Below, piece after piece: positions 35,450 to 38,420 of a stretch of 38,420 bases of DNA. The stretch spans positions 1 to 38,420 of the forward strand of contig NIUT01000003.1 of assembly GCA_002254365.1 (NCBI GenBank). The letters run 5' to 3'. The notes under the pieces are model-generated. The model made no database searches. It saw only the letters and a program-made list of their open reading frames with translations, and was not told the DNA's origin. Source of the stretch: Nitrospira sp. UW-LDO-01 (GTDB lineage Bacteria > Nitrospirota > Nitrospiria > Nitrospirales > Nitrospiraceae). The first letter of the stretch is position 1, and each line of letters opens with the position of its first letter. The translations under genes were made by a program, and so were the position numbers.

Positions 35450-35566
35450 ATGAAAGAAATTGCGACGGAAAATCTTGTGATAGGTGGGTTAGCCGGTTTG
35501 GGTGTGCTGGTATTGCTTGTGCTGTTTATCTATGTGGTGAAACAGATCATCATGAGGAAAGACTGA
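35450..35566 (+). CDS. 38-residue single-span membrane peptide
   Basis: A short frame: MKEIATENLVIGGLAGLGVL at the start, then a hydrophobic VLLVLFIYVV and a basic end KQIIMRKD. One membrane helix with an acidic N-side and basic C-side, so N-out/C-in by the positive-inside rule. Its TGA overlaps the ATG of ribE by 1 nt (TGATG at 35564-35568), as expected for a translated upstream gene coupled to ribE. A TATAAT at 35435-35440 lies 10 nt before its ATG but has no good -35 partner, and the upstream ribosome site is weak. Function unknown. Confidence 0.6.
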   Translation: MKEIATENLVIGGLAGLGVLVLLVLFIYVVKQIIMRKD

Positions 35567-36219
35567 TGTTTACTGGTATTGTTGAAGAAATGGGCGGGAT
35601 TACGGTCATGAACAAGTCGCTGGCTGGAGCCAAGCTGACGATTTTGGCTTCGACGGTGATGAGTGATCTGAAAATCGGCGATAGTGTGAGTGTGAATGGA
35701 ATCTGTCTGACGGTCGTCTCGCGAAGCGAACGCGACTTTTCGGTGGAAGTCTCACCTGAAACGCTCTCAGTCACGACGCTCGGTAGTTTCGCTGTGGGCA
35801 TGCCGGTCAATCTTGAACGGGCCATGAAGTTGAATGAACGCATCGGCGGGCATCTGGTGGCTGGTCATGTGGATGGGGTGGGGGTGATCCGCAGCCGGCA
35901 GCAAGACGCCAATGCCATCGTGTTTACCATCGGAGCACCTCCGGAGATTCTGCGCTATTGCGTCGCAAAGGGCTCCATTACCGTCGATGGCATCAGCCTC
36001 ACGATCAATGCCGTGAGCGAGCAAGGATTCAGCGTCGCCATCATTCCACACACGGCAAAGGTGACAATCCTGGGCCTTAAGCAGGTGAATGATACTGTGA
36101 ATCTCGAATCCGACCTCATCGGCAAGTACGTCGAGCGATTGCTTCAAGAACGTGGCCAGCTTTCTAAACCCACCATTAGCATTGATACAGAGTACCTGCA
36201 GAAACGCGGATTGATCTAA
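35566..36219 (+). CDS. ribE: Riboflavin synthase alpha chain
   Basis: 217 residues with the two lumazine-binding repeats typical of the enzyme, roughly 1-97 (MFTGIVEEMG, VSVNGICLTVV, FSVEVSPETL, NLERAMKLNERIGGHLVAGH) and 98-195 (VDGVGVI, GSITVDGISLTIN, FSVAIIPHTA, VNLESDLIGKYVER). The second copy of ...GHVDGVG is intact. It converts two 6,7-dimethyl-8-ribityllumazine molecules into riboflavin. It is read from the TGATG junction with the 38-residue peptide gene. No FMN riboswitch was seen upstream. Confidence 0.95.
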   Translation: MFTGIVEEMGGITVMNKSLAGAKLTILASTVMSDLKIGDSVSVNGICLTVVSRSERDFSVEVSPETLSVTTLGSFAVGMPVNLERAMKLNERIGGHLVAGHVDGVGVIRSRQQDANAIVFTIGAPPEILRYCVAKGSITVDGISLTINAVSEQGFSVAIIPHTAKVTILGLKQVNDTVNLESDLIGKYVERLLQERGQLSKPTISIDTEYLQKRGLI

Positions 36220-36314
36220 ATGGTAGCAGTCAGTATAGGCGGAGCTTGATGGAGTTTTCTGAACGGTAGATGAGTCCGCCTTAACTTTTGGTATCCACAT
36301 TTAGAGAATACTTC

Positions 36315-36872
36315 ATGGCGGAGACGCCATCTTCACCTCGGACTTTTGTCAGTTTCAGCAGTGCGGATAAAGGCCGATATGATCTGATGTGCGCCTGGAA
36401 GGCCCACGAGCATATCGACTTTAACTTCGCCGACTTTCAGCTCGATGAGGCGATCAACTCGCAGAGACCGTCCTACATCAAGTCTGTGTGTGCCGCGAAG
36501 ATCGGACGCGTCGATACCTTTATCCTTCTGATCGGAAACGACACGTACACGAAGACTGTCTTTGTGAAGGACGAGGTCGAGGCCGCAGTTGAGAAGGGAT
36601 GTCGATTGATCGGTGTGAATCTGGACAACTGTAGGTTCAGAGATGAACTGTGTCCAGCCTTCTTTGCAAACGTCGGGGCGCTGTTCGTTCCTTTCTCATC
36701 ACGCATTATCGCTGAAGCGCTCAAGTGGCAGAAGCAGGGTGTTTCACCTTCTTACTACTTTTTCAACGAGGTCTATACACGACTTGGGTATCAGTTTGTT
36801 GGTAACACCGCTGTGTTGCCACCGCCACCCAACCCATTTGGCGGAGGGAACAGGCCGCCATGGGCGAGGTAA
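36315..36872 (+). CDS. TIR-like domain protein (ThsB/DUF1863-type)
   Basis: 185 residues. The N-terminal ~140 residues resemble the ThsB-like TIR family (DUF1863): first strand FVSFSSADKGRYDLM, a helix with AWKA, DFNFADFQLDEA, then TFILLIGNDTYTKTVFVKDEVEAAVEKGCRLIGVNL, the family's LIGxxTxxxxFVxxEI-like core with E87. The C-terminus is low-complexity (PPPPNPFGGG). ThsB proteins sense phage and make cyclic ADP-ribose-type signals that activate ThsA; no ThsA, SMC/CD-NTase or other effector gene is adjacent, so this appears orphan. Start: ATG at 36315 gives the family N-terminus; the longer TTG-started frame is rejected. Flanking gaps are long. Confidence 0.7.
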   Translation: MAETPSSPRTFVSFSSADKGRYDLMCAWKAHEHIDFNFADFQLDEAINSQRPSYIKSVCAAKIGRVDTFILLIGNDTYTKTVFVKDEVEAAVEKGCRLIGVNLDNCRFRDELCPAFFANVGALFVPFSSRIIAEALKWQKQGVSPSYYFFNEVYTRLGYQFVGNTAVLPPPPNPFGGGNRPPWAR

Positions 36873-37185
36873 GAACCTGGGCTTGATCGGGGCCCCAGAA
36901 TGGGAATAGGTATCAGAGAGCTATTTCGTTGCAGGAGGCAATTGGCGGGAAAGTCGGACGGCGATTAATCAGGGGAACGTGGGGACGACCAAAACGACCA
37001 TGTCAGACAAAAGTGCTTTGCCCACATTCTTCTCCGCACTGACTGTATAAGACGACGAGCTGAAAGCGATATTAGAGCAAAACTTGCCTTGTTCCAATGG
37101 AATAGAGTGGACAATCGGTGTGTAGCCACCGATTTAGGCAGATGTGGACGAGCTGCCCAAACATTGTGCGACTAGGAAGGTCAGG
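36873..37185. other. 313-bp intergenic region with a perfect hairpin
   Basis: Between the TIR-like and HEAT-repeat genes. A perfect 8-bp stem, AATCGGTG-TGTAGC-CACCGATT, lies at 37113-37134, ~50 nt before the HEAT start; no T-run follows. A TATAAG at 37046-37051 is a possible -10 without a clear -35. No gene or attC-like GTTRRRY motif was found here. Confidence 0.5.
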
Positions 37186-38031
37186 ATGAGAAACGACGCC
37201 CGATATGAGAACGATGTGACGCCTAGTCGGATGGTAGTGGAGCGATACCGCTCGAAAGTTCACGATGACGAAGGCGATGCGAGCCTCGCACTCGTGCATT
37301 ATCGTGGCGGCCGTGAAGAGTTTGAGTTAGGGATCGAGTGCTTGAGTAGTTCCGATCCGTTGGATCGCGTAACTGGGGCTGACATCTTGGCTCAGTTGGG
37401 TTGGGCAGACCGGAGTTTCCTAGACGAATCGGTTACAGCACTTGTTCGACTGCTCGAAGATGAGAATGAGGAGGTTGTCGCAGCGGCGGCTGTGGCATTG
37501 GGCCATCGCGGACAACCAAACGTAATACCGTCACTCCTCCGGTTCGCAGATCACCTCAGCGCCGTTATTCGGCTTGGCGTCGTACACGGTCTGACAGGAC
37601 ATAGCCATCCTGACGCGATACGCGCCATGATCCGACTATCTTCAGACATCAACCATGATGTCCGCAACTGGGCGACATTTGGACTCGGGTCACAGATCAA
37701 AGATGACACACCCGAGATTCGCGAGGCGTTTCGCGCCAATTTTGGAGATCCCGATCACGAAATCCTGGGCGAGGCGATCGTCGGACTTGCAGAATGGAAA
37801 GATCCAGAGGTTGCAGACATCCTAATTCGCGAATGGGAATCGAGTGAGACTGTGAGTCTGCTCAGTATTGATGCAGCGGGGATTGCGGCGGACGCACGGT
37901 TAATCGAGCATCTGGAGCGGTTCAGAGCCGATCTGTCATTAGAAGAGGACGCATCGTTCAAATCAGCGTTAGATGATGCGATCAGAGCATGCAGAGGAAA
38001 GGCCGAACAAGCCGGCGGACACGTACGGTGA
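37186..38031 (+). CDS. HEAT-repeat protein
   Basis: 281 residues. From ~65 to ~240 there are repeated pairs of helices with the HEAT/PBS-lyase-like pattern: ALVRLLEDENEEVVAAAAVA-LGHRGQ, ALGHRGQPNVIPSLLRFADH, AVIRLGVVHGLTGHSHPDAIRAMIRLSSD, VRNWATFGLGSQIKDD and ILGEAIVGLAEWKDPEVADIL (quoted in segments). Such proteins bind other proteins; function here unknown. ATG at 37186 has TAGGAAGG five nt upstream; the in-frame GTG at 37144 is less well placed. The last codons (GGHVR and stop) lie inside the attC-like hairpin, as in gene-cassette ORFs. Confidence 0.72.
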   Translation: MRNDARYENDVTPSRMVVERYRSKVHDDEGDASLALVHYRGGREEFELGIECLSSSDPLDRVTGADILAQLGWADRSFLDESVTALVRLLEDENEEVVAAAAVALGHRGQPNVIPSLLRFADHLSAVIRLGVVHGLTGHSHPDAIRAMIRLSSDINHDVRNWATFGLGSQIKDDTPEIREAFRANFGDPDHEILGEAIVGLAEWKDPEVADILIREWESSETVSLLSIDAAGIAADARLIEHLERFRADLSLEEDASFKSALDDAIRACRGKAEQAGGHVR

Positions 38032-38070
38032 ACCCTGCGGGTTCACCGACGGTTATCTCCGCCGTTAGGC
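38002..38070 (+). other. attC-like recombination site (candidate)
   Basis: A 69-bp structure: left box GCCGAAC at 38002-38008 and right box GTTAGGC at 38064-38070. The right box fits the attC R' consensus GTTRRRY exactly; the left differs from its complement at one base. Inside are paired blocks GGCGGA/TCCGCC and a long terminal stem CGGTGAACCC/GGGTTCACCG... around a TGC loop (38027-38049). The right flank CGGTTATCTCCGCCGTTAGGC (38050-38070) has the L'-spacer-R' layout seen in cassette attC sites. No integrase gene is in the window, and only one such site was found. A terminator is the alternative reading. Confidence 0.45.
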
Positions 38071-38420
38071 GTTCCCGGTCAACAGAGTGAAAGGGGTCGC
38101 CCATCTCGAAGGCTCCGGTCAAGAGGGCACAGCCGATCATGCCCTCCGTATCCTACAAACGGGGCGAGGTCTCCGACGACGTCTTCCCTCGCCATGGTGG
38201 TCGCGTGACTCCGTCGCATCCCGGTTGTCGTCGTCAGCAGTGTCAGCTCGGATTTGAGCCGCACCAGTCACCCATCAGGATCAAGGCGTGGGAGCGAGCC
38301 CCGTCGGGGATCCACTCCAGCCCCTGGCACCTCGTGCCCCAGACAACCGTCGGTTCCCGGCCGTGTCCAGCATACCTACGCACAGGACGTCTGGCTACCA
38401 GCGGGCTGGCGCCAACCCCA
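38071..38420. other. Terminal 350 bp with no recognised gene
   Basis: One plus-strand frame stays open from ~38090 to the window edge (ATG at 38140, reading MPSVSYKRGEVSDDVFPRHG and onward), but it is arginine/proline/serine-rich and matches nothing known. Short hairpins are present (AGGGCA...TGCCCT at ~38124-38145; CCCCGTCGGGG at ~38299-38309). If the attC-like site is real, this would be the start of the next cassette. Confidence 0.35.

Follow-up and report, generated by a model that had tools for sequence, protein, structure and literature searches.

The DNA analyzed here (the window, 38,420 nucleotides) is the entire contig C3 of the 230-contig, 3.9-Mb draft genome of Nitrospira sp. UW-LDO-01 (G000 among our genomes), and the contig ends at position 38420. 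The features in the last 3 kb of the window are as follows.

35566–36219, + strand: ribE, riboflavin synthase (Pfam Lum_binding, 2.3e-48; 70 of 76 congeneric genomes have a homologue; synteny)
36315–36872, + strand: ThsB-like TIR-domain gene (Pfam ThsB_TIR, 1.7e-13; PADLOC ThsB, 1.5e-27)
36900–37037, + strand: repeat that is dispersed in the genus (blastn finds copies in G036, G068, G004, G067 and G056)
37038–37166, + strand: attI remnant (homology to the DNA after intI in the relatives G023 and G018; junction)
37167–38064, + strand: gene cassette of 898 bp, from the attI crossover to the attC crossover
37186–38031, + strand: gene for a HEAT-repeat protein of 281 aa (Pfam HEAT_2, 1.9e-17)
38002–38070, + strand: attC site (covariance model R1, 33.3 bits, E 5.4e-6; fold z -4.5)
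38090–38420, - strand: right end (a long non-coding region) of an IS110/IS1111-type element, 99–100% identical to copies in the relative G075

A preliminary description of this DNA had reported an attC-like hairpin with GCCGAAC...GTTAGGC boxes where the HEAT gene ends, and the hairpin is present at 38002–38070. The R'' box GCCGAAC (38002–38008) is a near-perfect RYYYAAC and the R' box GTTAGGC (38064–38070) is a perfect GTTRRRY. The two boxes are complementary at six of seven positions; the sole departure, a G at position 4, is shared with training attCs of L054, L154 and L158. The HEAT stop codon, said to lie inside the hairpin, is indeed the TGA at 38029–38031, between the boxes and within the site. 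A simple R/L-box hairpin scan of the 38-kb window picked out this one place only. The 69-base site folds as single-stranded DNA with -21.8 kcal/mol on the + strand and -22.3 on the - strand (z approximately -4.5 against dinucleotide shuffles). The fold has a long terminal stem with one extra-helical base and an asymmetric central spacer. The minimum-energy fold is untypical in that the R' side carries no spacer and the extra-helical base stands about 3 pairs from the next interruption, rather than 6. The homologous site in G075 differs at 3 of 69 bases, two of which together replace a G-C pair of the stem by A-T, a compensatory change, and scores 28.4 bits. A search of the window against Rfam at gathering thresholds gave no match.

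For the model search we made an attC covariance model, R1, which is distinct from IntegronFinder's own model. It was trained on 25 attCs of 58 to 81 bases that point away from intI in other integrase-bearing genomes; the window and G075 sites were excluded. The training sites were gathered by our hairpin scans, which are specific but insensitive and served solely as seed for the covariance model, and they align well with each other. The integrase loci came from congeners and, with the help of alignment A1, from 80 named genomes that span many phyla. The finished R1 model comprises 61 positions and 22 pairs. With filters off, it matched the window at exactly 38002–38070 (+) with 33.3 bits (E 5.4e-6), and the runner-up reached 11.4 bits. 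At 28.5 bits or more in the 80 named intI loci, all 102 matches agree in side and strand with what a cassette array predicts (19 of them are training sites). The best match in 217 kb of control DNA scored 19.8 bits. The score of the window site is in the middle of the R1 range, below the top scores. It was concluded that 38002–38070 is a genuine integron cassette recombination site. The second site that the preliminary description had proposed to look for was not found: in an R1 search of the whole 3.9-Mb genome, 38002–38070 is the sole match (E 5.5e-4).

On the 5' side of the HEAT gene there is homology to attI. Window positions 37038–37157 are 85% identical to DNA of G023 that begins 14 bp after the intI stop codon (E 3e-35) and 80% identical to the same place after intI in G018 (its contig C3). 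G075 has a full-form attI with 89% identity to G023 across 113 bp. The conserved stretch terminates at CATTG^TT or a near match to it in eight loci; mean pairwise identity, taken over five of the eight, is 0.74 in the 16 bases left of G^TT and 0.23–0.25 to the right. Such a collapse of similarity at G^TT among relatives is the pattern of an attI followed by different first cassettes. In other genomes the same attI is followed by different cassettes with R1-positive attCs (L058:3920–3978, 40.2 bits; L109:6670–6736, 39.3 bits). By sequence comparison, then, the start of the array is marked by an attI at 37038–37166, in decayed form. The core of the window attI reads G^TG in place of G^TT, and a deletion has removed about 23 bp before the crossover. 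Because of these two changes the window attI is probably inactive. The attC model match together with a recognizable attI at the start of the cassette identifies the HEAT gene as an integron cassette. The 281-aa gene is on the + strand, the strand that reads R''...R' as the attC, and it stops inside the attC. Its ATG at 37186, with AGGAAGG upstream, is located 19 bases into the cassette; a longer open frame from GTG 37144 would start inside attI.

The HEAT protein was searched for at E 1e-15 in 395 genomes of the phylum and found in this genome and G075 only, with the exception of one relative at 30%. The gene is intact in the window and broken in G075 by a TGA at codon 48. The two HEAT genes are 97% identical (dN 0.022, dS 0.072), and the ribE genes 90% (dS 0.42). 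Identity between the window and G075 is 97–98% from about 37300 to the attC, 89% in the 5' end of the cassette and 87% in attI. Since the highly similar tract starts within the HEAT gene and not at the attI junction, the exchange with G075 looks like homologous recombination, which by itself would be no sign of cassette movement. We considered the higher similarity of HEAT than of ribE to G075 as proof of IntI-mediated transfer and rejected it, as the breakpoint is well inside the cassette. A recombination tract that begins inside the gene also means that the cassette was probably at this attI before the window and G075 lineages parted, and that the later exchange was homologous. HEAT-type repeats usually serve as a protein-binding scaffold. 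The HEAT cassette is a further example of an integron-delivered accessory gene of unknown function.

In the relatives G018 and G023, intI is downstream of ribE and in the same orientation. In G023 it follows ribE directly; in G018 the two are separated by about 1 kb and by a second copy of the ribE end. In both, intI is followed by attI and attCs, so that intI reads towards the array. The intI region of another Nitrospira sp. (L130, nzgw278) shows 81–84% DNA identity to G023 and G051. The integrase that the preliminary description had proposed to look for is missing here: a genome-wide search gave no TIGR02249 match above cut-off and only weak Xer-like matches, and a search of 36200–38420 found no intI remnant. 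The place of intI in the relatives is filled by the TIR-domain gene (open frame from 36288, ATG at 36315). Its DNA has no match in the 76 congeneric genomes. The gene appears to be solo; no ThsA was seen among its immediate neighbors. The idea of the TIR gene as another cassette found no support, as R1 finds no attC in 36220–37166. The G075 interval between ribE and attI homology is also free of intI and measures about 80 bp.

Several side observations concern the DNA between ribE and attI. The dispersed repeat (window 36900–37037; L106, L108, L110, L117 and L118) borders attI, at the expected end of intI, in this genome and in G068, G004, G036 and G067. One of its frames ends in QEAIGGKVGRRLIRGTWGRPK, which recalls the tail of a REP-associated transposase; no confirmation of such a tail was obtained for 36900–37037. 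The last ~165 bp of ribE (window 36056–36227) are duplicated in at least 11 congeners, mostly 0.4–1.4 kb downstream (L050, L106, L111–L116 and L122–L124). The inserts that were checked carry genes of toxin-antitoxin type (ParE, HigA-like HTH, MntA/HepT, PemK and DUF5615 PIN). The 3' end of ribE is an apparent hotspot for insertions.

On the other side, the distance from the attC to the start of the IS110/IS1111-type element is 20 bp in the window and about 43 bp in G075. The window copy is cut by the contig end after about 330 bp, and its transposase lies beyond. In G075, nine IS copies are listed at 99–100% identity, one of them with a 375-aa transposase. In this genome the element is also present at the ends of contigs C163 and C206, and an 86% copy is found in C50; three contig ends of the assembly are due to the element. 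The copies (window 38090–38420; L066, L105 and L205–L217) occupy unrelated sites that have in common a short AAAGG-like flank. Downstream of the attC in G075, the order is IS, IS30-like transposase, toxin-antitoxin-like genes and acs.

Could the resemblance to attC be fortuitous, the hairpin being a transcription terminator or some other stem-loop at the end of HEAT? A strong inner hairpin (GGTGAACCC-TGC-GGGTTCACC) does stand near the stop codon. However, a U run is absent, the R' box is perfect and the R'' box nearly so, the R1 match is unique in the genome, and the gene is preceded by an attI whose G^TT junction is exact. We regard this explanation as very unlikely. The neighboring IS invites another account, in which the site is a target or product of an element of the IS1111-attC type, or of another element that targets folded DNA, and owes its association to that. 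Targeting of attC is on record for some IS1111 elements (PMC11187229), and the short distances in the window and G075 would fit. But the attC here is whole and not part of the IS, and eight other fetched G075 copies and five elsewhere follow unrelated DNA with no attC boxes, at loci where R1 gives 10.3 bits or less. With most IS copies away from attC, targeting of the IS1111-attC kind was rejected, and the account as a whole is extremely improbable.

The integron could also be complete in the living organism, with intI and further cassettes missed in a 230-contig draft. The contig does end in a repeat just past the attC, and such breaks hide arrays (PMC9024848). Against this, the expected place of intI, from ribE to attI, reads gap-free and holds neither the gene nor a remnant, and the genome is 99% complete yet lacks intI. 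G075, in which the ribE–attI interval is likewise without intI, shows no further attC by R1 in about 16 kb read past the HEAT attC. A complete integron is thus improbable, with only a small chance of being correct.

The HEAT gene is best explained as the first and only remaining cassette of an intI-less chromosomal integron beside ribE (probability approximately 0.93). The order ribE, lost intI, attI, HEAT cassette and attC is that of a relic chromosomal integron. The locus is of a known kind, an established type of gene-capture system in a state of decay, in a genus for which integrons have hardly been reported. Of the earlier proposal that HEAT is a mobile cassette, the cassette part holds, by its attC and attI; mobility by its own integron has probably been lost. 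The ancestral order would have been ribE, intI, attI and cassettes, with intI transcribed towards the array. From established integron biology, we infer that the integrase of the lineage recombined attI with the attC of the HEAT cassette, the latter as a folded bottom strand. Then intI would have been lost, its former place now being taken by the dispersed repeat and the TIR gene. Decay of the attI and arrival of the insertion sequence, 20 bp after the attC, would have followed. The HEAT gene is left intact, yet would be fixed in place unless an outside integrase is supplied.

Three known systems are comparable. In the Treponema chromosomal integron, intI is transcribed towards attI, and the T. 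phagedenis remnant is integrase-less (PMC3607928). The intact Nitrospira relatives share the intI orientation, an attI directly after intI and attC-ended cassettes, and the window resembles the T. phagedenis remnant in having lost intI with an attC left behind. It differs from the Treponema type in the phylum, the position beside ribE, the single cassette and the IS after the attC. Two CALINs, the IntegronFinder category for attC clusters that have no integrase, are known from Candidatus Nitrospira inopinata (PMC9024848), which belongs to the same or a related genus. The window is like a CALIN in having attC without intI; unlike one, it has a single attC in the genome, under the IntegronFinder 2 default of at least two, and it keeps a recognizable attI, which the CALIN definition does not require. 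The IS1111-attC insertion sequences, such as ISKpn4 and ISPst6 (PMC11187229), adjoin attCs as the IS110/IS1111-type element does here, but this element starts outside the attC and its other copies are away from attC sites.

Across the congeneric set, 66 of 77 genomes contain at least one R1 match, counted here as a candidate site, and a single genome has as many as 14. This compares with the two CALINs reported for Nitrospira (PMC9024848). Many of these sites are solitary and far apart, and most of the genomes have no detected intI. Downstream of ribE, R1 matches with no intI found are seen in G012 (L111, 46.8 bits), G053 (L122, 43.8 bits) and G030 (L123, 24.3 bits), which suggests that these sites are further relics of the same ribE-side integron. 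The stages of one integron at ribE, intact, half-lost and lost, can be followed across congeners and give a stepwise view of its decay. The wider genus pattern is more interesting than the single locus. Tentatively, and at slightly less than even odds, Nitrospira may carry a genus-wide, mostly broken legacy of an ancestral ribE-side integron whose intI faced its array, surviving as attI–cassette relics that lack an integrase and as many solitary attCs scattered over the chromosomes, which the integrases remaining in some members could move. If true, Nitrospira would exemplify how integrons decay and their cassettes disperse.
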